Origin: Stenomitos rutilans HA7619-LM2
GTDB taxonomy: Bacteria > Cyanobacteriota > Cyanobacteriia > Leptolyngbyales > Leptolyngbyaceae
Reading direction: 5' to 3'
DNA: 64,000 nucleotides
Assembly: GCA_019358945.1 (NCBI GenBank)
Contig: JAHHIE010000010.1
Span: 1 to 64,000 of the forward strand
Below the pieces are notes generated by a model, which searched no databases, had not been told where the DNA came from, and worked only from the letters and a program-made list of their open reading frames with translations. Both the position numbers and the translations under genes were made by a program. Numbering within the stretch: the first letter of the stretch is position 1; each line of letters starts with the position of its first letter. Of the stretch, positions 10,410 to 61,501 are shown piece by piece.

Positions 10410-10654
10410 GAGAAGGGTAAAAGGCAGAGGGCAGAAGGCTAAAGGCTAAAGGCTAAAGGCTAAAGAAGTTGTTGGTTGTAAAGCTCTAAAGCCTTTCGGC
10501 ATATCAGAAACGGGCATACAAGAAAGGTTATTGGTTGTTAAAAGTAAGCTGTCAGCTGGTGGCTGACGATTCGTCGCTGATAGTTCTTCAACTCAAAACT
10601 CTCTAGCTTGTCGGCGCAAAGCGCTACTCAAAACTTCTACTTCCCCTTCATCTG
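10410..10654. repeat. short-repeat cluster between dppC and dppB
   Basis: At about 10435-10465 the 7-base unit AAAGGCT is repeated four times. A composite repeat at 10576-10640 recurs at 20655-20719 on the other strand (63 of 65 bases match), and a 39-base core of it (10597-10635) recurs unchanged at 29934-29972. A segment GGGCATACAAGAAAGG at 10514 belongs to another family seen near 11750, 11815 and 14645. No gene is present. Confidence 0.8.
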
Positions 10655-25241: not shown

Positions 25242-25768
25242 TTAGCATCACTCGCTTTGACGTTGCCTACCGGGGTATTGCTACCCTAGCTTCATTATCT
25301 GTGCAGGAACAGCAAACAGGAGTGTCGTTCATGCGGGTTGCCCCTTGAAGAGTTGCTAAAGTTCTTCTGCCTGCGCGTAAAGCTATTGATCTTGTCCTTA
25401 CATCTACGGACTTCGCTGTCTCTTCAAGATACACCCTTACTTTTAATGTGCCCAAAAGCTAAAGGTGCTCAACAGGCTGAGAGCTAATCCTACTAAGTTA
25501 TTACTGAAGGCTGAGAAAAATTCCGAACATTTAGCGATTAATTTTCGCTTACTTGATTCTCCATTGCCGAAAGGATTTTGAAAAGGTGCTGGCAGAATTT
25601 TGTGGGAGAGGGGAGAAGGCAGAAAGTAAGAAATAGAGGGGAAGGGGGGACAGGAGAAGGGGGAAAGGCTAAAGGCTAAAAGCTAAAGGCTGACCGCTGA
25701 CGGCTGACCGCTGATGACGGGGAGAACGATAGAATAGTTTTGCATAAAAGAAGGTTAGCAGGCAGGTC
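25242..25768. other. divergent intergenic region with repeats
   Basis: A 527-base gap between the divergent kinase and pheT genes. Its right part (about 25600-25715) holds purine-rich GGGGAAGG tracts, AAAGGCT units and GCTGACCGCTGACGGCTGAC units. The remaining bases show no gene. The pheT start lies about 50 bases after the repeat cluster. Confidence 0.6.
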
Positions 25769-28288
25769 ATGCGTATTTCTTTGAACTGGTTGAGCGAACT
25801 GGTTGACATCACAATGAGTCCAGAGGCGCTGGCAGAAATGCTGACGATGGCAGGGTTTGAGGTAGAGGAAATTGAAGATCGGCGGATGTGGGCTGAGGGT
25901 GTTGTGGTCGGTAAGGTGGTCGATCGCCAGCAGCATCCCAATGCCGATCGCTTGAGTGTATGCCAGGTAGACATTGGTATGGGAACGCCTTCGACGATCG
26001 TTTGCGGGGCTGCCAATGTCAAAGCGGGGCTTTTTGTGCCTGTAGCAACGCTGGGTGCCTTTTTGCCTAAAGCTGGGGAGGGTCTCAGAATTAAGCCTGC
26101 CAAGCTGCGTGGTGTAGCATCCGAGGGCATGATTTGCTCGTTAGCTGAACTTGGTCTGACAAAGGAATCTGAGGGCATTCATAGCTTTGAGGGGGAAGAG
26201 CTACAGGTGGGCAGCGATGTTCGCTCGCTACTGGGGTTGGATGATGTCATTTTGGACTTGACCTCAACCGCTAATCGCGCCGATGCCTTGAGTATGGTGG
26301 GCATTGCGCGTGAAGTTGCAGCGCTAACGGGTGCCACCTTAAAGCTTCCTCAAGCAGCGACAACTACTATTCCAACTAGTGCAGAGATATTGACGCTCAA
26401 AATCTCAGAACCACAGGCGTGCCCAACCTACATTGGAACGGTCATTGAGCAGGTGACGATCGCACCCTCGCCACTTTGGCTCCAACAGCGGCTACAGGCA
26501 GCAGGAACGCGCCCCATCAATAATGTCGTGGATATTACCAACTACATTCTGCTGGAGTGGGGGCAACCGCTACATGCGTTTGATGGCGATCGGCGGTCAG
26601 CGGTCAGCGGTCAGCGATCAGCGGTCAGCAAGGAGTCAGAACTCAAAATATCTCCTTCGGAGACGCTTCGCGAACAAAACTCAAAACTCAAAACTATTAC
26701 AGTCGGTGTGCGCTTTGCGGAAGCGGGTGAAACGCTCAAAACGCTGGACGGGCAAGCTCGATCGCTTCAGGAGCAGGCCTTGTTAATCACAGCGGATAAT
26801 GAACCTGTAGCGTTGGCAGGCGTGATGGGTGGTGAGGCCACGGAAGTTCATGCTGGCACGCAGCGCTTAATGCTAGAGGCAGCATTGTTCGACTCTGCTG
26901 CAATTCGACGCTCTGCTCGATCGCAAGGGATGCGCACAGAAGCATCGGCGCGCTATGAACGGGGTGTCAACGAAGCGGAGCTGGAGGTTGCCTGCCGTCG
27001 TGCGATCGCGCTCATTAGTGAACTGACGGGTGGTGTGGTCGCAGCCCAAGCTGTTGCGGATGCCCGTAGTAGCCAGCCATCGACGGTGCGATCGGTTGAA
27101 TTACGGCTTGATCGGGTCAATCAAGTGTTGGGGCCTGTTACCGTCGGCGAAGAGTTAGGTGAATTGCAACCGCGAGACATTGAGCGGACTCTAACGGCGT
27201 TGGGCTGCGAACTAATGACCATTACCCCAGATCGTGTCTGGGCTGTGACCGTGCCACCCTATCGCTATCGAGACCTAGAGCGCGAAATTGATCTCATTGA
27301 AGAAATTGCGCGACTGTACGGGTACAACAATTTTTGCGATACGTTGCCTGACAAAACCGAGGCGGGCTTTCTCTCGATTGAGCAGGCGCTTAGTCGCAAC
27401 TTACGGCAGGCATTACGGGCGATCGGGCTTACCGAAGTGACCCACTACACGTTAGGCAAACCCGGTGACACACGGCAAATTGTCCTGACAAACCCATTAT
27501 TTGTAGAATATTCGGCGTTGCGAACAAATCTGACAGCGGGCTTAATTGACGCTTTTCAGTACAACCTGGAGCAAGGGAATGGCCCTCTGAACGCTTTTGA
27601 AATTGGTCGCATCTTCTGGTCTGAAGAAGACGGTTTTAGCGAGGCAGATTCCGTTGCAGGCGTTTTGGGTGGTGATGCGACGCGCGGTACATGGGTGCGC
27701 TCTGGTCGTGAACAACCGCTAACCTGGTTTGAGGCCAAAGGTTTGTTAGAAAGTGTTTTTCAGCGGTTGGGGTTGGCGGTTGAGTACCAGCCCGATCGTC
27801 GAGATGAGCGTCTCCATCCCGGTCGCACCGCGTCTCTGTGGATTCGAGGCATTCGGTTAGGCACCTTCGGGCAACTGCACCCACAGCTACGTCAAGAACG
27901 GGGTTTACCGGATGAAGTCTACGTGTTTGAACTGGATCTGGATGTGCTACTCGATCAGCTTGATCAGGATGAAGCCCAAGTCCCTATCTTTCAGCCATTT
28001 TCAACCTATCCACCGTCCGATCGCGATATTGCCTTCTATGTTTCGACCCAGGTATTGGTGGCAGACATCGAGCGCGTCATTACCAAAGTGGGCGGTAGTT
28101 TGCTGGAATCGATCGACCTGTTCGATGAGTATCGCGGCGAGAACGTTCCTGATGGGCAACGCAGCTTAGCGTTTCGGCTCCTGTATCGGGCGGACGATCG
28201 TACCCTCAAGGACGAAGACATTGATCCAGTGCATCAAAAGGTGCGCGAAGCGTTAGTCGATAAATTCCGCGTTGATCTCCGAAGCTAG
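25769..28288 (+). CDS. pheT: phenylalanyl-tRNA synthetase beta subunit
   Basis: An 839-residue beta subunit of the tetrameric enzyme that charges tRNA-Phe. It shows the N-terminal [13 protein letters not shown], the EMAP-type tRNA-binding domain (about 40-150, with [13 protein letters not shown]), the B3/B4 editing domain (about 200-400), B5 (about 410-490), the core with [11 protein letters not shown], and the C-terminal anticodon-binding FDX-ACB domain ([15 protein letters not shown] onward). Bacterial PheT is usually about 800 residues. The excess here is a repeat-derived segment at about residues 275-309 (bases 26589-26697), between LHAFDGD and the [17 protein letters not shown] segment, listed separately. 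Without it the flanking sequence aligns normally. pheS is not in the window. Confidence 0.95.
26589..26697 (+). repeat. dispersed repeat inserted in-frame in pheT
   Basis: Within pheT, 109 bases consist of five GGTCAGC-like units (26595-26629), a GGAGTCAGAACTCAAAA unit, a CCTTCGGAGACGCTTCGCGAA segment and two CAAAACT units. Each is also found between genes in this window. The translation is hydrophilic and low in complexity ([18 protein letters not shown], then NSKLKT). The reading frame is kept, and no stop codon results. Confidence 0.85.
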
Positions 28289-35937: not shown

Positions 35938-36051
35938 GAAATCGGCTCAAAACGCCTGTGAATCACCTCGCCTGCGTGGGCACGTCCGCCACCCTGGGCA
36001 GTCATGCCAGCCAGGAGGATGTGCTCAACTATGCGTCTACCATCTTTCAAG

Positions 36052-36163
36052 TAGGACTTACGCACTTGCCCCCTATCCCCCAATGCTGGGGGCTTTAGTT
36101 GGCTCTGTTCCCCCAAAATTGGGGGATAGGGGGCGAAAGATGACCGCTTTTGCGTAAGTCCTA
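36052..36163. mobile_element. MITE, TAGGACTTACGCA family, 112 bp, in helicase
   Basis: The ends are a perfect 13-bp inverted repeat, TAGGACTTACGCA and TGCGTAAGTCCTA. TCAAG is duplicated immediately outside (36047-36051 and 36164-36168). Removing the element plus one copy of TCAAG (117 bases) joins TTT CAA to GAA CCC and restores the helicase frame. Inner arms GCCCCCTATCCCCCA and TGGGGGATAGGGGGC make it foldback. It has no coding capacity. It differs from the copy at 47577-47688 at about nine positions. Confidence 0.92.
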
Positions 36164-36907
36164 TCAAGAACCCTTTCTAGACGGCGCACTGATTCAGGAA
36201 GATCGCCTCACTGCTGCGGCGTTTTTGCAAGAGGCACTCTTGAATGTGTTGCCTGTGCCTGGGCTAGAGGCGATCGCCCAACTCAATCCTGACTCCTACA
36301 CCACGCCAGAAGCCTACATCCGAGCACAGGCGACCCTCTGGCTGCAAGATCTGACTCTCACCGATACTGCTGACCCTGACGCGTCCTTTAGCGATGAGTG
36401 GCGTGTCCAACTTGGCGAAGAACTCAAAACCCTACCGATCATCCACAATCTGATCTGCCTGCTGGGGCAGACAGCCCTCACCTATGCTGATCTGCTGGAT
36501 CGACTCAGCCGCCGACTTCAGCTCCCCCAAGAGCAACCCGGCTACAGTCAGTTACTCCTTGGATAGTTTGCTCAGTTTGGTGGCGATCGCCCGCCGTCGC
36601 GTTTTGCGGCCCAATGGCACAGCGCTCATTTTGCCCTGGGTCAACTTACACGTCCAGCTTCGGTTTCGCGAGTTAAAGCGGATGGTTGCCACCGTCGAAC
36701 CCCGCCCTCAATTGCTCTACTCTGACGATTTGACTCCAGAGCAGGCAAAGAAAACACTGCCCGTAATGCACTACCGCGACTGCGGAGCCACTGGCTGGGG
36801 AGGCATCAAACCCGCTCAAGGATCGACAAAACTTGTTGCCAACGATCTGCAACGCTTCTACCGGGAATATTTTGGACACAAGCTACTTGTTACCTTTGCC
36901 TTTCCAG

Positions 36908-37011
36908 TCGATCACCCTCATCTCCCCAACCCCCTTCTCCTACAGGCGAAAGAGGAGCCGAGCCTTTCTGGTTCCCCACGCCCTCTGGGAGAAGGGCTAG
37001 AGGTGAGGTAC
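36908..37011 (+). repeat. intergenic-type repeat inside helicase pseudogene
   Basis: CTCATCTCCCCAACCCCCTT, followed by CTCCTACAGGCGAAAGAGG and ending with TCTGGGAGAAGGGCTAGAGG, is a common intergenic repeat style in cyanobacteria. It adds a PNPLLLQAKEEPSLSGSPRP-type peptide before the zinc-finger region without a stop. Confidence 0.6.
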
Positions 37012-37540
37012 ATCCGCAAGCTGTGTTCAGAATGCCTGACCTTAAAGTTCTAGAGTGGAAAGCTGTCTTGCGTGTAGGCATCCTGATCTGATTCGCGTTC
37101 ACATCCCTGAGATTACAAAACCAACAGAAGATGCCGCCGGACAGAAAAAGCTCGTTTCCAGTGGTGACTGCCCCTTCTGTAACAGCAGCAATGGCTTGTC
37201 CATCTTGGGCGCACAAGCTGCTAGCCTGACCAGCGCCATGATCGGGACACTCTACACCACCCCATTCAACCGCGATAAAAAACTGCTCACCTTCTCAGAT
37301 TCAGTGCAAGATGCTGCTCACCGTGCTGGCTTCTATGGGGCGCGTACCTATCGCACAACCTTGAGAACGGCAATTGCCCATACAGTTTACTCAATCAAGA
37401 GACCATCGCAAAGCTGGGCATCAAGAACAAGCGACTGCGGGCAGGGTGGGACGAAGACTACTTGCTCACGGTCTTACTGGGATAAGATGCGTTTGCCCTG
37501 TACTTAAGGACTTTACTGTTGGCTTAGGAACTTTATTGCT

Positions 37541-37992
37541 TGTCTACATCGTCAAACGTCCAGCTTTGCGGCCTGCACTTCTGCGTTGACCGCAGTTGAC
37601 CCATCTTTATCAAGTGCCTGAAATGCTTTCTTGAAAGCCGTTTTAGGAAACAAGAAATTTTTAAAGAGAGATCTGGACTAGATTTGGACTAAAATTTCAA
37701 ACGGTTTTTAGCGTCGTTGATAGCACGCCTTCCATCTACGCTCAGCTACAACAATCAAAAACTACCTCAGTCCTCAGCAGACTAATATGATCTCACTTAC
37801 CTTTTTGAGACTCAATTTAAGTCCAATTTTGAGACTCAAAATCTTGTTTAAGACAACAATACTGCACTGCACTTGAAAATCGTTCAATGTAGTGCAGTAT
37901 TGTTGAAAACTAAACTGATTAGCCTTATCTTTCGAGAGAGCCAAAAACGCTTGTCTTCTATCTTTTGGAGCAAGCAGGCGTGCGATAAAGAC
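37541..37992. other. AT-rich spacer with paired motifs and long hairpin
   Basis: No gene. It holds two GAGACTC sites (37807-37813, 37831-37837) within matching TTTTGAGACTCAA segments, and a 15-bp perfect inverted repeat (listed separately). The same GAGACTC/GAGTCTC motif forms the array beyond the HHL1-like gene. Confidence 0.6.
37854..37905. terminator. 15-bp perfect inverted repeat beyond the HHL1-like gene
   Basis: CAACAATACTGCACT (37854-37868) pairs exactly with AGTGCAGTATTGTTG (37891-37905). The 22-base loop contains a further TTGAA/TTCAA pair. It lies about 90 bases past the stop of the minus-strand HHL1-like gene and could end its transcript. There is no clear U-run on the minus strand, so a processing or protection role is equally possible. 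Confidence 0.6.
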
Positions 37993-38427
37993 CTAGCCGC
38001 GCTGAAAAATTGACGCAACGCGATCGCCAACATGCGTCAGAAGGCTTTGAATTCCAGCAGTACCCTTGGGTGGTGGCGCAACAGCTAATTGAATCGGCTC
38101 ATCCTTAAACTCCTTTAGTCGATAGCCATACTCCAACTGGGTTTGATGTTTCCGCAAGATTGGAAAGAGGCGAAACGCACCTTGTAATAAATCATCCTGA
38201 CTACCAAAAACGGCTCGATTAATCTGATCCGATCGCGGTAAAGCGATCGACCCTACGGGATACCAGGCTTTTTTACCTTGAATGCGAATGTAAATCTCAA
38301 AATCTGGAATGCCCTCAGCCTTCAGCTTGTCATCCCGCTTGACGGCCTCAGCGCGCACTGCCGCACGTTTTGACACAGTTGGCTTTGATTGAGTCTTACC
38401 AAAGCCGGAATTGGCTGTCATAATCAA
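37993..38427 (-). CDS. HHL1-like protein
   Basis: A 144-residue protein with a Lys-rich N-terminal half (RAAVRAEAVKRDDKLKAEG) and a conserved block GIPDFEIYIRIQGKKAWYPVG, then IALPRSDQINRAVF, LLQGAFRLFPILRKHQ and LEYGYRLKEFKDEPIQLA. This is the pattern of HHL1 (hypersensitive to high light 1), which in plant chloroplasts associates with photosystem II and supports its repair, and of its cyanobacterial homologues. No membrane helix is evident here, so it is probably peripheral. The gene is flanked on both sides by GAGTCTC-type motifs. Function in cyanobacteria is inferred from the plant protein only. Confidence 0.8.
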   Translation of the reverse strand: MIMTANSGFGKTQSKPTVSKRAAVRAEAVKRDDKLKAEGIPDFEIYIRIQGKKAWYPVGSIALPRSDQINRAVFGSQDDLLQGAFRLFPILRKHQTQLEYGYRLKEFKDEPIQLAVAPPPKGTAGIQSLLTHVGDRVASIFQRG

Positions 38428-39210
38428 TACCCATTAGCTCTTAATAAAAGTTTACTTCATTTTCAAAAAATAGCGCCTGGGTGCAGCCTCAAGCAGCAAG
38501 ATTCTTTTCAGCTCAGATGTTACTAGAACCTACAAGGGCTTTTCCAGCGTCTGGACTCCGCAAACGTACTTCATCTGAAAAATAGCGCTCCGGGAGAGCA
38601 CTGCCATGATCCCTACAACCCAAACGAGATGTCTTTCCGTCTTAAATGAGTCTCAGTATAAGTCTTTTTGCAAGTCTCGAAATCTCAAATAAGAATCCCT
38701 TGGTCTTAAGTGTCTCATAACAGAATCGCTTTAGAACTTAATGTGAGTCTCATTTGAGATTATTCCAGCCTCTGGTTTAACGTCTCATTCAAACTCAGAT
38801 TCGTCAGCCTTGTCTTGTAGTCTTATTTTAGACTTTTTATGAGACTTTATATGAGTCTCGTTTGAGACCAAAAGACTAGAGTCGTGCTTGTTTAGTATCT
38901 CAAGCAACGTTGTCTTAATGTCTCAAATGAGTCTTGAAATGAGTCCAAAAAGGAGTCTCATCATCTCTCGTTGCAGGGTCTCAACAAAGGAAAAGTTGTC
39001 TTGCTGTCTCAAGTGAGTCCCAGCGCGAGTCTTATGGCAGATCTCAAAATCTCAATTGATTGCCTGTGATTTTCTAGCTGTAGTCCGCTGCAAAGAATGA
39101 ACGCAACGTACTAATTGGTCGTAGCCGCGTGAGTCAAACACAAGGCATCACTTCGTTGCTTGATACCGAGAGGGCAATATAAAAGCTGTAAAGCCTTGTT
39201 GCAAGCGAGT
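38428..39210. other. 783-base intergenic region with motif array
   Basis: Upstream of the HHL1-like gene and downstream of the L,D-transpeptidase gene, both on the minus strand. The part at 38648-39032 is an array of GTCT/AGAC motifs (separate entry). The remainder shows no gene. Confidence 0.6.
38648..39032. repeat. array of 22 GTCT/AGAC motifs at near-helical spacing
   Basis: The tetramer GTCT or its complement AGAC occurs 22 times in about 380 bases (about 3 expected by chance), often as GAGTCTC or ATGAGTCTC. Full GAGTCTC copies start at 38648, 38745, 38853 and 38953. Within clusters the spacing is mostly 8-13 bases, for example 38650, 38662, 38674 and 38812, 38820, 38830, 38842, 38855, 38865, 38873. 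The units are not tandem copies of one longer sequence. The pattern suits repeated binding of a small protein on one face of DNA, but this is inference. Confidence 0.7.
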
Positions 39211-39831
39211 TTAAGGTTCCACCATCACAGCCGTACCAATGGGAACTTGTTCAAACATCGTAGTCACATCACGATTTCGCATCCGAATGCACCCATGAGA
39301 AACCGCTTGCCCTAAAAGTTCTTCTTGATTGGTGCCGTGAAAGCCGATTTGGGTCTTGCCGTCCGTCCAGATGCCAATCCAGCGCGACCCTAATGGATTA
39401 TCAGGGCCAGGATAAATGAGTTGTCCAGTCCGAAAGTTCTTAAACACAGGGTTTTTCTCTTTCGACAACACCTGAAATCTGCCAGTTGGAGTTTCCCAAC
39501 CACGCTTCCCGATCGCGATTGGATACTTCGCCAACACCTGATCGCCACGATACACATAGACCCGCCGCTGACTCAGTCTCACTACAACACGAACGGCAGT
39601 CATTTCCTCTCCCTGGATGGGAATGGAGTCAATGACGGGTAGCGGTGGCAGAGTGGTTAGTAGAGCTGGCAATTGTCTAGGTGTGGCTGCATGTTGTGCA
39701 TTCACCGCTTGGCTTGTGCCCAAAACAACTGCGAAACTCAAACCCATTATGAGCGATCGTGATTTGCCGTGACATTGCTTAGGAGTAAAACCGCTGACCA
39801 TCACTAGACCTGATTCTCTGCTGTTTCTCAA
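39211..39831 (-). CDS. L,D-transpeptidase (YkuD domain), exported
   Basis: A 206-residue protein with a signal peptide: basic start, hydrophobic core LIMGLSFAVVLGTSQAV and a cleavage-like VNAQHA near residue 46. The YkuD domain begins RVVVRLSQRRVYVYRGDQVL, continues GKRGWETPTGRF, and carries the catalytic pair His165 (GFHGT) and Cys181 in VSHGCIRM. These enzymes form 3-3 cross-links in peptidoglycan or attach proteins to it, in the periplasm. It follows the Anbu-type protease gene on the same strand after about 80 bases. Confidence 0.93.
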   Translation of the reverse strand: MRNSRESGLVMVSGFTPKQCHGKSRSLIMGLSFAVVLGTSQAVNAQHAATPRQLPALLTTLPPLPVIDSIPIQGEEMTAVRVVVRLSQRRVYVYRGDQVLAKYPIAIGKRGWETPTGRFQVLSKEKNPVFKNFRTGQLIYPGPDNPLGSRWIGIWTDGKTQIGFHGTNQEELLGQAVSHGCIRMRNRDVTTMFEQVPIGTAVMVEP

Positions 39832-39913
39832 TTGAGCCTACCCGGTTGACTATCAATCCTCTCAGACCAAGTTCCTTAAGGGCTTTAAATAATAGTTTGT
39901 TGATAAACCCTTG

Positions 39914-40684
39914 TTAATCTTGGGAGCTAACTGGATCGTCTGAAAAATCTTGATAATGTTCCCAATCAATGTTGGGCATGCGATCGAACGCTTGATTCAG
40001 CGAAATTTCCCACATCTTACGAATTTGAGCCAGGTAAGGGGCACCTAGACTGAGCTTGAGTTCATACCGAATCTTGAATGAATCCGTTTCATACATCACC
40101 ACGTTAATCGGTGGCCCTACAGAAATGTTGGATTTCATCGTAGAGTCGATCGACAGCAGCGCGCACTTAGCAGCAGCCTCAAGCGGGGTATCAAAGTCCA
40201 GGATGCGATCGAGGATGGGCTTGCCATACTTCGCTTCACCAATTTGCAAAAAGGGAGTTTCCTTTGAGGCTTGAATGCAGTTGCCCTGACTGTAGACCAG
40301 AAACAGTGCTGGCTCTTCGCCGCGAACCTGCCCACCCACCAAAAACGTACACTTAAAATCAATCCCGTCTTTCTCCAACCAGGGACGATCTTGCTCTTGA
40401 ATCTGCCGTGCTTTCGCACCGACATAGCGAGCCACCTCGTACAGCGTCGGCAACGTATGCAAATTGCTCTCCTCCTTAGCCGTCAAGTCATGCCGCAGCA
40501 GCGTCAACGCCCCTTGCGTGACCGACAAATTCCCCGCTGTGCAGATCAAAATGACTCGTTTCCCAGGGTCGGAGAAATCGAACAGCTTTTGATGCGTCGA
40601 AATATAATCGACTCCGGCGTTTGTGCGAGAGTCCGCAGCCATTACCAAACCAGAGTGAGAAAGGATGCCGAGACAGTAGGTCAT
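39914..40684 (-). CDS. proteasome-type protease, Anbu-like
   Basis: A 256-residue N-terminal nucleophile hydrolase. The start MTYCLGILSHSGLVMAADSRTNAGVD resembles the Anbu (ancestral beta subunit/BPH) family rather than HslV: Thr2 becomes N-terminal after Met removal, Asp18 in ADSRT and a Lys in HQKLF (about 33) would complete the site. Ile-Gly-Glu-Ala-Lys-Tyr-Gly-Lys-Pro (IGEAKYGKP) in the second half is also family-specific. Anbu genes usually sit with an alpha-E protein, an ATP-grasp protein and a transglutaminase-like protease; none is here, so this is an orphan copy. Confidence 0.87.
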   Translation of the reverse strand: MTYCLGILSHSGLVMAADSRTNAGVDYISTHQKLFDFSDPGKRVILICTAGNLSVTQGALTLLRHDLTAKEESNLHTLPTLYEVARYVGAKARQIQEQDRPWLEKDGIDFKCTFLVGGQVRGEEPALFLVYSQGNCIQASKETPFLQIGEAKYGKPILDRILDFDTPLEAAAKCALLSIDSTMKSNISVGPPINVVMYETDSFKIRYELKLSLGAPYLAQIRKMWEISLNQAFDRMPNIDWEHYQDFSDDPVSSQD

Positions 40685-42189
<1,505 letters not shown>

Positions 42190-53741: not shown

Positions 53742-56360
53742 CTATTTTGCCTTTGCTTCCAGGTTTTCCAGGCGGCTTCTCAACTCCTGGTTTGCTTGTT
53801 TCAATTGATCCAATTCTTCGCGGAGTTGCTTCACGGCTTTGTCGGAACCAACGTTTTTCTGAACGCGCTGGACGGCTTCTTCGGCGATGCGACGCACGCG
53901 ACCGTCGGGAGTTTGGTCTGCAAGAGCTTGCAAGATACCGATCGCCCGTGCGGTTTCCATCTGTCCCAGTGCAATCACAACGGCTACTTGCGTCAGGAAG
54001 AAGGTTTCGCGCGACAGTTCTCGAAGGCGATCGAGAATGCGTTCCAGGTTACTGTTCGCTTGTCCAGTAGAAATAGCACCGAGGGCACGAATGGCGGCGA
54101 GGCGCAGCGCTTGGGGTACACCGGGAGCCGTGTATTCTAGGATGAGGTTCAGGGCATCTTCGGAGGTTTTCATTTGGCTGAGGGCACCGATCGCGCCCGA
54201 TCTCACCACTTCATTCCAGCCCTGCCGCTCCTTCAGCACCGACTTGAGCACCTTCATCACCTTCTCTTCTCTTGACTCACCCAGGCTGGAGGTGACAATG
54301 CTGCCCAATCCACGAATAGCCGCCGCTTCCACGTAATAGCTGGCATCGCCCGCTTCGGCAATGGACTTCAGCGCTTTATAACTTTCGCGGGTCTTGATGG
54401 TTGCCAGAACTTCAACAGTGGCTCGTCGCACCCGTGCATCGGAGTCTTTCAATCCGGCCGTTAAGCCGTCAAAGGCCTGATCGAGCTTAATCGTGGCAAG
54501 ATTTCTAGCGATTTCAACGCGCACACCCCAGAAGGGTTCAGCTTTCAGTGCGTTCGTGAGCGCCTTTACAGTCTCCAAGCCGCCTTTCTTTGCCAGCATT
54601 TCAGCCGCCACAATGCGCGACAGCGGATCGGGATCAGCCTGTAGCTGCACTTTGAGTTCTGGTAGCGGATATTCCAGCACCACCGTTTTGAGAATATGGC
54701 TGCTCACGTCAAAGCTCACAAAATCCGGCTTTTTCTCCAGCGGGAAGTAGAAGGCTTGCTCGCGCTCGTGAATGCGGACGGGGAAAGTTTTGAGTTTTGA
54801 GTTTTGAGTTTCGAGTTTCGAGCCATTGTTAGTTTCTGACTCCTGACTCCTGACTCCTGACTCCTCTCCTACATACCCAAACCCGATCGGCACTTTCAAA
54901 TCAAACAACTCCGCCTGCGTCTGCGTAACGGTCACTTTAGCGAGGTTGCTGTCGTTATCCCAGGAGTAGGCGACTTTGTAATCGGGGTGCCCGCCGCGAT
55001 AGACGTACTGATCGAAGAGGAAGAGCAGGTTGCGTCCACTGGCTTTTTCGATCGCCCTCAGCAAATCAACGGTTTCCACCGTCTTGTGGGCATTGTCGTT
55101 AACAAACGTTGCAACTGCTTTCCAGAAAAGGGCATCGCCCAACTCGGCGCGAATCATGTGATAGACGCAGGCACCTTTTTCGTAAAGATGGCGATCGTAG
55201 AGTTCGATCGCTTCTCGGTAAACATGGGTGACGATGGGACGACGATAGCGAGAACTGTCTTCATCCAGGTAATTCCGGGCTTCACCAAGACGGTAATAGG
55301 CGGCATCTTCAGCACCGTATTCGTGGTCCGTCCACATGATTTCGGAGTAGGATGCCATGCCTTCTTTTAACCAGGCGTGCGACCAGTGCTTAATGACGAC
55401 CAGATCGCCAAACCATTGATGGGCAAGTTCATGAGCCACTAAGCTTTCGGTACCCCGGTTGTCGATCGCAGCGCGTTCATCCAGCAGGCAGCGATCGGTC
55501 AGCAGCGTTGTCGAAGTATTTTCCATCCCACCAAAGATGAAGTCATCGACACAAACCTGCGCGTATTTAGGATAGGGATAGGTGTAGCCGTACTTTTCGC
55601 TAAAAAACTCAATCATGCGGGGCGTTTTGCCCATGCTGATCCGTGCTTCTTTTTCTTTGCCTTTCTCGGCGTAGTAAGTGACGGGCTTACCCTTCCACTC
55701 ATCCCGTAGCTCAGCAAAATCTCCCACTGCCAGCGTCATCAGGTAGGTAGGATGCACCTGCTTTTGGTGCCAGTGATAGATTTTGTCGTCACCATCCGCC
55801 TCGGTGTTAACTAACTCACCATTGGAAATCGCCATGAGTTGCTTCGGCACGCGCACCCGAATTTCGGAGGTTGCCAGTTGTCCGGGATAGTCGAAGCAGG
55901 GAAACCAGAAGCGAGAGTCTTCGTCTTCGCCCTGAGTCCATACCTGGACGGGTTTATCGGGATAATGCTTGTCGGGCGCGATGAAGTAGAGGCCGCGTTG
56001 GGGGTTGTTAACGCGATAGGCGATCGTCAGCTCAATCGGTTCTCCGGCTCTTGTCGTCGGCTCTAGCTGGATGTGCAGCAGTTCTCCATCGTAGTCAAAG
56101 CGTTGTTTTGTCTCGCCTACGTAAACCGAGTCGATCTGTAAATTCACCGCATCTAACGTCAGACGATCGATGCCGTCGCGCACAGGATTTAATCGAATCG
56201 TACAGGTGCCGTGATAGCGCTGATTCGGAATATCCAGATCGAGATCCAGAAAAATATGCTCCACCTGTCCGGGACGATCGGGGTTGTAGTGAGGTTTCGC
56301 ACCGGGCAGTTCAAAGGACTTGTGACCATTCGTATCAGGGTCAAAATAAACCTGTGGCAT
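53742..56360 (-). CDS. pepN: M1 family aminopeptidase with HEAT repeats
   Basis: An 872-residue metallopeptidase. The M1 core has the GGMENTSTT motif (about 280), the zinc site VAHELAHQWFGD (about 307-318) and the second zinc Glu in KEGMASYSE. After about residue 560, HEAT-like repeats appear (VSFDVSSHILKTVVLE, then repeated ALG, DARVRRATVEVLATI, VRRIAEEAVQRV). The final 35 residues are a predicted coiled coil (LREELDQLKQANQELRSRLE). It removes N-terminal amino acids from peptides, in the cytoplasm since no signal peptide is seen. Residues at about 497-525 derive from an inserted repeat. The HEAT tail is unlike E. coli PepN but known in cyanobacterial M1 proteins. Confidence 0.93.
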   Translation of the reverse strand: MPQVYFDPDTNGHKSFELPGAKPHYNPDRPGQVEHIFLDLDLDIPNQRYHGTCTIRLNPVRDGIDRLTLDAVNLQIDSVYVGETKQRFDYDGELLHIQLEPTTRAGEPIELTIAYRVNNPQRGLYFIAPDKHYPDKPVQVWTQGEDEDSRFWFPCFDYPGQLATSEIRVRVPKQLMAISNGELVNTEADGDDKIYHWHQKQVHPTYLMTLAVGDFAELRDEWKGKPVTYYAEKGKEKEARISMGKTPRMIEFFSEKYGYTYPYPKYAQVCVDDFIFGGMENTSTTLLTDRCLLDERAAIDNRGTESLVAHELAHQWFGDLVVIKHWSHAWLKEGMASYSEIMWTDHEYGAEDAAYYRLGEARNYLDEDSSRYRRPIVTHVYREAIELYDRHLYEKGACVYHMIRAELGDALFWKAVATFVNDNAHKTVETVDLLRAIEKASGRNLLFLFDQYVYRGGHPDYKVAYSWDNDSNLAKVTVTQTQAELFDLKVPIGFGYVGEESGVRSQESETNNGSKLETQNSKLKTFPVRIHEREQAFYFPLEKKPDFVSFDVSSHILKTVVLEYPLPELKVQLQADPDPLSRIVAAEMLAKKGGLETVKALTNALKAEPFWGVRVEIARNLATIKLDQAFDGLTAGLKDSDARVRRATVEVLATIKTRESYKALKSIAEAGDASYYVEAAAIRGLGSIVTSSLGESREEKVMKVLKSVLKERQGWNEVVRSGAIGALSQMKTSEDALNLILEYTAPGVPQALRLAAIRALGAISTGQANSNLERILDRLRELSRETFFLTQVAVVIALGQMETARAIGILQALADQTPDGRVRRIAEEAVQRVQKNVGSDKAVKQLREELDQLKQANQELRSRLENLEAKAK
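54786..54872 (-). repeat. dispersed repeat inserted in-frame in the M1 aminopeptidase gene
   Basis: The segment consists of TTTTGAG units (54786-54815) and four ACTCCTG units (54839-54866), both common between genes here. Read on the minus strand it encodes EESGVRSQESE, then NSKLKT. The frame stays open, and the segment separates VPIGFGYVG from FPVRIHEREQAF, which adjoin naturally in the M1 domain. Confidence 0.8.
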
Positions 56361-56575: not shown

Positions 56576-57616
56576 ATGACGGCTACAAGTTTTGCACCCA
56601 ATCTTGCGTCCCACCTCATCAACGGTCTCTTAGCAGTCAAGCCGCTGGCAGCTTTGGCAAAGCACCAGGCACGTCAGATGATGATTAAGCGGGCAGAATT
56701 GATCGGGGTCTACTGGCTAAAAGAAGTAGAGGCATTGCGATCGCGCGCCTGGGACAACGATTTAGCGCAGGTACAAAACCCAGATCTGTTCTATCCGGAG
56801 TACTATGTCACCTCGTTTCATGCCTACGAAGAAGGCAATTTGGGTTGGGAACCCGCGCTGGAGGTAGAAGTTGCGGCTCATGCCGTCCACGCTCGCATTT
56901 GGCAAGACGCTGGAGCGCAGGGCGATGCGTGGTTGCGTCAGAGCTATCACGATGTCTTAAAGGCTCAACTGCCTGTAGCGCCCAACGACATTTTGGACAT
57001 TGGCTGTAGCGTGGGGATGAGTACGTTTGCGCTGCAAGAAACGTTTCCAACCGCGCAGATGACAGGACTGGATTTGTCGCCGTATTTTTTGGCAGTAGCG
57101 AAGTACCGGGGGGAAGGTAGAAGGCAGGAGGCAGAGGGAGCAGGGGGATCAGGAGTCAGGAATCAGGAGTCAGGGGAAGTAAGGGAAGCAGGGAGAGACG
57201 GAAATTTAACTCAAAACTCAAAACTCAAAACTCATAACTCTTCTCCTCACCCCTTACCCACCTGGCTACACGCAGCGGCTGAGTCTACGGGCTTACCGGA
57301 TGCGTCGTTTAATCTGGTGTCGGCGTGTTTAGTGTTTCATGAGTTGCCGCAGAGTGCTGCGATCGCCATCCTCCAAGAAGCGCGTCGTTTGCTGCGTCCA
57401 GATGGGCACCTGACCATTATGGATATGAACCCCAGGTCTGAGATCTACTCCAAAATGCCGCCTTATGTGAAGACGCTGCTGAAAAGTACGGAACCCTATC
57501 TGGATGAGTATTTTTCGCTAGATCTGGAGGGCGCGATCGCCGCTGCTGGTTTCGCTCAACCAACTGTGACGTGCAATAGTCCACGCCATCGGACGATCGT
57601 CGCTCAAGTAAAGTAA
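56576..57616 (+). CDS. class I SAM-dependent methyltransferase with repeat insertion
   Basis: A 346-residue protein. The SAM motif I is DILDIGCSVGMSTFAL (about 138-153), AQMTGLDLSPYFL is motif II, and motif IV is SFNLVSACLVFHELP, with DGHLTIMDMNPRS following. A helical N-terminal part (KPLAALAKHQARQMMIKRAELIG) precedes it. Between SPYFLAVAKYRG and TWLHAAAES, where SAM methyltransferases have adjoining strands, about 48 residues derive from inserted repeats (57112-57258). The substrate is unknown; the family includes ubiquinone/menaquinone-type and small-molecule methyltransferases. The neighbour on the left is divergent. Confidence 0.85.
   Translation: MTATSFAPNLASHLINGLLAVKPLAALAKHQARQMMIKRAELIGVYWLKEVEALRSRAWDNDLAQVQNPDLFYPEYYVTSFHAYEEGNLGWEPALEVEVAAHAVHARIWQDAGAQGDAWLRQSYHDVLKAQLPVAPNDILDIGCSVGMSTFALQETFPTAQMTGLDLSPYFLAVAKYRGEGRRQEAEGAGGSGVRNQESGEVREAGRDGNLTQNSKLKTHNSSPHPLPTWLHAAAESTGLPDASFNLVSACLVFHELPQSAAIAILQEARRLLRPDGHLTIMDMNPRSEIYSKMPPYVKTLLKSTEPYLDEYFSLDLEGAIAAAGFAQPTVTCNSPRHRTIVAQVK
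57112..57258 (+). repeat. dispersed repeat inserted in-frame in the methyltransferase gene
   Basis: About 147 bases made of purine-rich GGCAGGAGGCAGAGGGAGC, GAGTCAGGAATCAGGAGTCAG and three CAAAACT units (57210-57238). They encode GEGRRQEAEGAGGSG, VRNQESGEV and LTQNSKLKTHNSS, with no stop codon. These same units lie between genes at about 50940-50975, 60978-61010 and 61621-61635. Confidence 0.82.
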
Positions 57617-60768: not shown

Positions 60769-61117
60769 CGTTTCCTCAATGCGATCGGTGGACAGTCATC
60801 ATTTCGTTTGTAAGGGCATTTCATGTAACCTCTTTACAAACATCCCATCCTTGAACACATCTCATTAAAGGTGAGCACGCAGATTTTTACGCCATCCCGC
60901 GGGAAGAGACCGCTGGAGAATAGTGCAGTCATTCTGAATGAGAAGGTGATCTTAGTGGTCAGCGGTCAGCGTAGAAGTTTTGAGTTCTGAGTTTTGAGTT
61001 TTGAGTTAAATTGCCGTCTTCCCCCGCTTCCCCGTCTTCCTCCGCACCCCAACTCCCAACTCCCGACTCCCTTCTTCTATCTTTTACCTTTTGCCTTTTA
61101 CCTTCTGCCTTTTGCCT
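60769..61117. repeat. repeat-rich intergenic region
   Basis: Contains GGTCAGCGGTCAGCG (about 60957-60971), four TTTTGAG units (60978-61005), pyrimidine-rich CCCGCTTCCCCGTC segments and CTTTTACCTTTTGCC units (about 61080-61120). No gene is present. Confidence 0.8.
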
Positions 61118-61501
61118 TCAACGTCCTTTCTCCGCCAACCAGTAACCTACTGCAATGCCCAAGAAGCTGGCGGCTAAGTCTGTGGCATCGAGTGTGCGAT
61201 TGGGTGAGAACGATTGGAGCAGTTCCTCTATCACTGTTCCGATCGCAAAGAGAATGGGAAACAGCGGTACTGCGATCGCTCGCATGACCAGCCGACGATA
61301 CGCAAACACTCGATGTCCTAAATAAACGGCAACACCATAAAGAACGACATGTCCAATTTTGTCGTAGTACGGAATCTGGCTAAATTGTGGCGGCAGATTG
61401 CCAGTATAGGCGAGCAGCAGAATGATGAGAAAGGCCGTGGTGTAGAGAACTGCTAAGAGTTGCCACCCGAAACGTTTTGCTGCGGTCGGTTGCCCTTTCA
61501 T
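61118..61501 (-). CDS. VanZ family protein
   Basis: A 127-residue membrane protein with about four hydrophobic segments. The central DKIGHVVLYGVAVYLGH and the last helix IEELLQSFSPNRTLDATDLAASFLGIAVGY (motif E-x-x-Q, then D-x-x-D-x-x-A) match VanZ-like proteins, which confer low teicoplanin resistance in Enterococcus and are otherwise of unknown function. Length is normal. It follows the Pr6Pr gene on the same strand after 244 bases with repeats. Confidence 0.88.
   Translation of the reverse strand: MKGQPTAAKRFGWQLLAVLYTTAFLIILLLAYTGNLPPQFSQIPYYDKIGHVVLYGVAVYLGHRVFAYRRLVMRAIAVPLFPILFAIGTVIEELLQSFSPNRTLDATDLAASFLGIAVGYWLAEKGR

Follow-up and report, generated by a model that had tools for sequence, protein, structure and literature searches.

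In other bacteria the points at which GC skew switches coincide with dif, and matS sites lie spread over the terminus macrodomain, where they are bound by MatP. Here we examine an array of short boxes in a stretch of 64,000 nucleotides from the cyanobacterium Stenomitos rutilans HA7619-LM2 (contig JAHHIE010000010.1, positions 1 to 64,000; the window). Judged from sequence comparison, the array probably represents, in this genome, a cyanobacterial replication-terminus element: phased and putatively protein-bound boxes that would serve the final step of the chromosome cycle. In the literature, largely its openly accessible part, we found no terminus, dif or partition site described for cyanobacterial chromosomes. 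In Synechococcus elongatus, oriC is where dnaN is located (PMC7198777, PMC3480399), and the terminus has been placed by GC disparity only (PMC3480399). Most cyanobacterial genomes are reported to have irregular GC skew, and Synechocystis and Nostoc initiate replication at many origins (PMC7198777); in species of the latter kind one would not expect a single terminus. Published dif prediction failed in all five cyanobacteria tested, with a divergent Xer and site suggested as a cause (PMC3025954), and one cyanobacterial group is described as having no Xer and a separate 'Cyan' subgroup of recombinases (PMC8138268).

The array is made conspicuous by the tetramer GTCT/AGAC, which occurs 22 times within positions 38648-39032 (on the + strand, 18 times as GTCT and four times as AGAC). 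Our recount agrees exactly with an initial annotation of the window, which had put the expected number at about three. The tight cluster, to which no strand is assigned, extends over 38627-39060 and holds 24 copies against 2.46 expected from the rate in the remaining window. Among 1236 other stretches of this length the maximum is 8, the second-richest 385-bp stretch of the window has 7, and dinucleotide shuffles of the cluster region (n=1000) give a mean of 7.1 and a maximum of 14. On one side of the array stands an HHL1-like gene (37993-38427; PF20133, E 9.2e-51) and on the other a gene with a YkuD domain (39211-39831; Pfam E 1.5e-27); congeners have arrays at the same place.

A single box is a short palindrome resembling TRAGWCTYA, neighbouring boxes stand 11-12 bp apart, and together the boxes make a quasi-palindromic unit of about 50 bp. 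Side-by-side reading of the congeners gives a common composite unit in which boxes are spaced by 8, 11, 12 and 12 bp and followed by the palindrome ATCTCAnnTGAGAC. Pooling box pairs from 20 loci, we find 139 at 11-12 bp and 5 at 13-18 bp, a count that is partly circular, the loci having been chosen by model. Two models were used: R1, built from 22 units on sequence only, and R2, a broader model of 51 positions from 58 units. In several genomes R2 matches both strands at one place, and the units are thus nearly symmetric. Composite units matched by R1 on the + strand of the window lie at 38631..38694 (spacing 8-11-12-12 bp; E 5.2e-14), 38912..38968 (E 2.0e-11), 38998..39059 (E 3.1e-9) and, on the far side, 3' of the HHL1-like gene, at 37791..37854 (E 1.1e-10); all four belong to the training set, and the first match arises partly by construction. 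Outside the training set, a quasi-palindromic unit at 38812..38876 is matched on both strands (38812-38861, +, E 1.6e-6; 38826-38876, -, E 5.0e-6). An isolated palindromic box pair, GAGTCTCATTTGAGATT, can be read at 38745..38761 (inverted repeat I2, no strand assigned). The R1 matches listed for the genome of the window all fall within C119:37791-39059, and units 3' of HHL1 are also present in G002, G003 and G006.

These results refine several statements of the initial annotation. The spacing of 8-13 bp that it gave for motifs inside clusters is real, and its placement of the motifs on one face of the DNA holds roughly and for neighbours only, as 11-12 bp exceeds one helical turn. Its statement that the units are not tandem copies nearly holds: TRF likewise reported no tandem array at the box cluster, and three 62-bp copies found by repeat search share 61-76% mutual identity, yet the composite unit lies concealed there. 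The interval that it marked was drawn too narrow, with a further unit lying across the HHL1-like gene. Its preference for selection or a binding protein over slippage is supported by box pairs mostly 11-12 bp apart and by arrays that are kept in congeners whose region does not align: a BLAST search of the 651-bp region against 39 genomes returned the self match and a 61-bp match in G017, and nothing from six congeners.

At E<=0.1, R1 matches 40 of 42 genomes of the family. Among the matches listed, 35 genomes have at least two, which share a single contig in 33 genomes and are split over two contigs in the fragmented assemblies of G020 and G051; within one contig the listed matches spread over up to 27 kb in G039 and up to 110 kb in G016. 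The units also rank among the most conserved intergenic blocks in an alignment of 68 picocyanobacterial loci (of 72 sequences, after removal of near-duplicates). No neighbour gene is common to all the array loci compared. The element is essentially one locus per genome, in which boxes and their spacing are kept while their order turns over.

We now turn to where in the chromosome this locus lies, taking dnaN, located first in 14 and then in 45 genomes, as the point of reference. In one family (f2), which from named loci with the same gene and units we infer to be the Prochlorococcus/Synechococcus group ('picocyanobacteria'), the position of the locus was taken from an adjacent gene that encodes a fused ribbon-helix-helix (RHH)/J-domain protein, RHH-J. 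Across 47 single-contig f2 genomes the median distance from locus to dnaN is 0.484 of the genome, and it is at least 0.40 in 46 of them. Eleven genomes outside f2, chosen by hand for near-complete assembly, give a mean distance from element to dnaN of 0.400 (p 1.6e-4 for the mean against uniform; Kolmogorov-Smirnov p 0.002). Several of the genome lengths behind these distances are known to two digits only; G063, where the position of the element is unlisted, was excluded, as were some assemblies of more than one contig, G118, G206 and G144 among them. The local GC skew changes at the same place. In 21 of 24 genomes the skew is higher to the left of the element than to its right (mean difference 0.069, p 4.6e-5; 28 loci were entered, four were dropped for short flanks, and the fetched loci L097, L158 and L166 were left out), that is, in 11/14 genomes of family f1 and 10/10 of other families, and the change falls in the 2-kb bins adjoining the element. 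The placement of the element at the replication terminus is well supported. We reject a replication origin: the element is antipodal to dnaN, and just two of 24 loci have their best DnaA-box match less than 300 bp away. A chromosomal parS/ParB system was looked for as well; the best match to the 16-bp TGTTTCACGTGAAACA-like site fell within 300 bp of the element at none of the 24 loci.

The element extends well beyond one family. R1 matches 46 of 290 genomes of the class at E<=1e-5, and R2, at E<=1e-4, matches 87 of 388 in nine families: 33 of the 37 f1 genomes, 35 genomes of f2 and a further 19 spread over seven families, many of these 19 with one marginal match each. A DNA pattern run over 84,980 bacterial and archaeal species, each represented by one genome, returned 104 stretches. 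The 80 of these that were listed comprise 79 from cyanobacteria, mostly Prochlorococcus with one Scytolyngbya, and one from Dehalococcoidia. A three-motif pattern was dropped as stand-alone evidence; it was too weak, its reversed control matching more often in most genomes, and about half of the leads it gave turned out to be arrays.

In the picocyanobacteria the RHH-J gene supplies a candidate for the protein that binds the element. It was read in G120 and G136, where a gene of 336 aa with an RHH-like N-terminus and a C-terminal J domain adjoins the units (L148 8898-9908; also L150, L154 and L339-L351). Pfam assigns DnaJ at E 2.1e-6 and RHH_1 at E 0.03, below the cut-off; profile comparison gives weak alignments to NikR (2bj1, E 0.0033; 1q5v, 0.013) and CopG (2cpg, 0.022), with an unrelated leucine-rich repeat protein scoring 0.013 in the same comparison. 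A profile of the whole protein finds 88 of 388 genomes, namely 87 from f2 and one from f31 with the J domain only. The gene is present in every one of the 35 R2-positive f2 genomes, though interrupted by stops in G274, and the nearest gap between gene and unit is at most 601 bp in each of the 32 f2 genomes with both positions listed. Where 3.5-4 kb around RHH-J was scored in 13 f2 loci, 11 of them from the 52 R2-negative genomes, the best unit score exceeded the 95th percentile of 95 control pieces of G044 in 13/13 and the control maximum (19.7) in 5/13, G044 being of different base composition. Among the 80 loci fetched by pattern alone, 72 carry RHH-J, always with the element 3' of the gene, the nearest gap being 194 bp in the median and 375 bp at most. 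RHH-J is absent from eight: five Prochlorococcus loci whose element is no more than 460 bp from an edge, the Prochlorococcus locus L230 with the element inside, the Dehalococcoidia locus and the Scytolyngbya locus. Part of this linkage is due to conserved local gene order; a DUF3370 homolog stands directly before RHH-J in the GC-richer f2 loci (two of which were scanned with Pfam). No motor gene was noticed beside the element, no systematic search for one having been made. Separate RHH-only frames of 64-116 aa occur elsewhere in G310, G358, G282, G372, G322 and G330.

MetJ recognises AGAC by means of a basic residue and a threonine in its strand, and at the corresponding positions the strand of RHH-J carries R/K and S/T. 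We treat this likeness as a lead rather than a test. An AlphaFold model of RHH-J from eight close sequences was unusable (mean pLDDT 40). A single RHH family as binder in all cyanobacteria was rejected, no such protein having been found outside f2 in the element loci fetched and the 24 genomes searched apart from weak matches, and the proposal that RHH-J binds the element concerns the picocyanobacteria only.

How might such an element work? A protein, probably dimeric, would bind the palindromic TRAGWCTYA boxes 11-12 bp apart; dimers would fill the boxes, with neighbours binding cooperatively, and a nucleoprotein cluster would form at the sole place where the two replication forks meet. This cluster could then act as a handle or marker that organises the terminus for segregation, or for the resolution of dimers or catenanes, by analogy with RHH proteins on plasmid centromeres and MatP on matS. 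In picocyanobacteria the J domain could recruit Hsp70 to dismantle or remodel it. Among these possible jobs we put that of an organising or segregation array foremost, the copies being many, non-identical and nearly symmetric, and an equivalent of dif next.

Several observations weigh against a terminus element of this kind. The genome of the window shows no local skew flip of its own (0.001), the change is opposite in G006, G019 and G053, and points taken at random from a 400-kb part of G044 vary with a standard deviation of 0.059, so that no single genome is decisive. The locus is far from antipodal in G162 (0.20), G046 (0.22), G244 (0.33) and G047 (0.36), and the p values for position and skew overstate the case, related genomes not being independent. 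Chromosome-wide GC skew failed as proof of the terminus in both genomes sampled, G130 (20 samples, p 0.63) and G044 (40 samples, p 0.45), neither of which shows two arms. R2 finds no match at E<=1e-4 in 301 of 388 genomes, 52 of the 87 f2 genomes with RHH-J among them, although such non-matches prove little because the filters were strict and few candidates were scored; in most genomes the crude three-motif pattern does not outnumber its reversed control. Finally, the element loci fetched outside f2 have no RHH relative except a weak one in L157, and an RHH search of 24 non-f2 genomes gave only three weak matches.

A separate observation concerns gene order. An open reading frame of the window at 25748-28285, PheT-like by eye, has homologs (35-42% identity) that also neighbour the element in five picocyanobacteria, and this shared neighbour might reflect an old terminus-proximal order of genes.

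The strongest rival, which we consider unlikely, holds that the element is the missing cyanobacterial dif, consisting of a core site with accessory arm-type boxes and used by a conserved tyrosine recombinase for dimer resolution. The failure of published dif prediction and the 'Cyan' subgroup cited above speak in its favour, as does the local skew switch at the element. A PF00589 match is present in all 20 genomes searched (18 above the cut-off) and is the single one in G120, G065, G179, G362 and G162. In 9 of 10 genomes fetched (from f2, f25, f6 and f1) the long match belongs to one orthologous family of divergent tyrosine recombinases of 363-455 aa (L355-L361, L363 and L364; the lengths are those of open frames, some clipped by the end of the stretch), and in several Prochlorococcus-like genomes it is the only one. 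Its members are 42-82% identical and conserve the GLR, TKTG, LRH, GH and TY motifs with the residues R, K, R, H and Y; one ortholog has a weak match to an arm-binding domain (E 0.047). In G044, moreover, some 0.5 kb separates the element from the domain of an XerC-like gene (a 335-aa frame, L372 65-1069, at about 303 kb of G044:C1), and a homolog with 85% identity is near the element in G018. Against this, no ortholog of the conserved recombinase was identified in G044 or among the 9 fetched of the 20 PF00589 matches in the genome of the window, and wherever both were located, its gene and the element are far apart. When the E. coli dif 28-mer was compared with 24 loci, the best match (scores of 16-19 of 28) fell within 300 bp of the element at a single one. 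The copies, moreover, are many, non-identical and in both orientations over 1-30 kb, so that recombination at each would delete or invert DNA, and boxes repeating at 12 bp are unlike two arms of about 11 bp around a centre of 6-8 bp. A simple core dif site is disfavoured because of this multiplicity and direct 12-bp phasing; the boxes as accessory arm sites are possible.

That the element is instead a replication fork trap or barrier, similar in effect to Tus-Ter or RTP, seems improbable. The terminus position and the skew change between the 2-kb bins flanking the element would suit a trap, as would the arrangement in several Prochlorococcus-like genomes, where two units point one way and a third is inverted about 530 bp further on. 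A fork trap, however, is polar by nature, whereas the units are nearly symmetric.

Neither does the array appear to serve the gene beside which it was noticed. The initial annotation had placed it upstream of the HHL1-like gene, and a search with that protein across 42 genomes of the family gave 30 loci, one of them that of the window. The window and all five congeners with an HHL1 match do have the array upstream of the gene, with 13-20 motifs per 400 bp in the congeners; this also answers the annotation's call for comparison among relatives, conservation being retained rather than lost. At 24 loci from other genera, however, motifs around HHL1 number 3-10 per 400 bp, and no such array is present; 20 of these genomes have listed R1 matches away from HHL1, two have no match and two are absent from the listing. 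Among the loci compared, then, the HHL1-like gene adjoins the array only in congeners. Units flank the gene on both sides, and the congener G001 keeps an array (contig C102) though the HHL1 search gave nothing there. An operator of the HHL1-like gene is largely refuted, and an operator array for that gene or its neighbour is very hard to maintain. A neutral repeat family or mobile-element remnant, to which the fast divergence and variable number of copies and the many other short repeats in the window might point, is barely credible for an element that is essentially a single locus per genome rather than dispersed, lies antipodal to dnaN across many genera and conserves its boxes while its flanks drift.

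Among related candidates, transposon ends were dropped, no flanking gene being common to the loci (the ends themselves were never compared), and a dispersed repeat was dropped after an early pattern search that matched unrelated 21-bp coding-type repeats on other contigs. Such 21-bp repeats with GAGTCT, resembling a coding repeat of seven residues and unrelated to the array, are found at L007-L011 (G000:C55:8444-8660). Other features of the window stand apart from these questions. A long inverted repeat (CAACAATACTGCACT ... AGTGCAGTATTGTTG), maybe a terminator, occupies positions 37856-37907, with the distal unit on one side and the HHL1-like gene on the other; it gives microRNA matches below the Rfam threshold. 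Over 36000-41000, Rfam reports only microRNA look-alikes below the gathering score and no known RNA family, and no tRNA or known RNA was found in the stretches scanned. Short tandem arrays with 7-bp units lie at 10435-10465, 26593-26629, 54786-54865, 57208-57240 and 60976-61119.

A mark of the terminus whose range spans Prochlorococcus as well as large filamentous genomes, that of Scytolyngbya for one, would make termination, dimer resolution and segregation directly testable in organisms that include some of the most abundant photosynthetic ones. Growth estimates from read depth at origin and terminus would gain a fixed terminus, and RHH-J as DNA-binding protein and a recombinase are candidates to test against the element.

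We close by comparing the terminus element with described systems. Like Tus-Ter and RTP fork traps it has several sites at the terminus, but those sites are polar and of other sequence. With the met boxes of MetJ (AGACGTCT) it shares the AGAC/GTCT half-site, and RHH-J shares the basic residue and Ser/Thr at the contact positions of the strand; MetJ, however, is a gammaproteobacterial repressor of methionine genes on 8-bp tandem boxes and not part of a chromosome element. In common with dif/Xer there is a single terminus locus per chromosome, though chromosome-wide skew gave no confirmation, a local skew switch, and tyrosine recombinases in the genomes that carry the element. Unlike dif, which is one 28-bp site with two 11-bp arms, it consists of many degenerate boxes phased at 12 bp, and the 24 loci gave no 28-bp site with XerC and XerD arms. 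matS/MatP of enterobacteria is alike in its terminus-specific palindromic boxes and in that MatP, as the picocyanobacterial candidate, is of the ribbon-helix-helix type, but matS has single 13-bp sites over hundreds of kb and a different consensus (GTGACRNYGTCAC), whereas the element is dense within about 1 kb, or tens of kb in some genomes. The iteron centromeres of plasmids (parC/parS, with ParR, ParG or omega) resemble it in having short boxes at 11-12 bp, the spacing that dominates here in a partly circular count, and, in picocyanobacteria, an adjacent candidate RHH gene; they differ in that the element sits at a chromosome terminus, that its candidate binder carries a J domain and that no motor gene was noticed in the loci as read. 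Our tentative picture, doubtful as a whole, is that cyanobacterial chromosomes would be segregated or released by way of a centromere-like nucleoprotein array at the terminus, unlike dif, Ter or matS, whose 12-bp-phased palindromic boxes would be ancestral to many lineages and, in Prochlorococcus and its kin, would be served by a fused RHH/J-domain protein that hands the complex to Hsp70.
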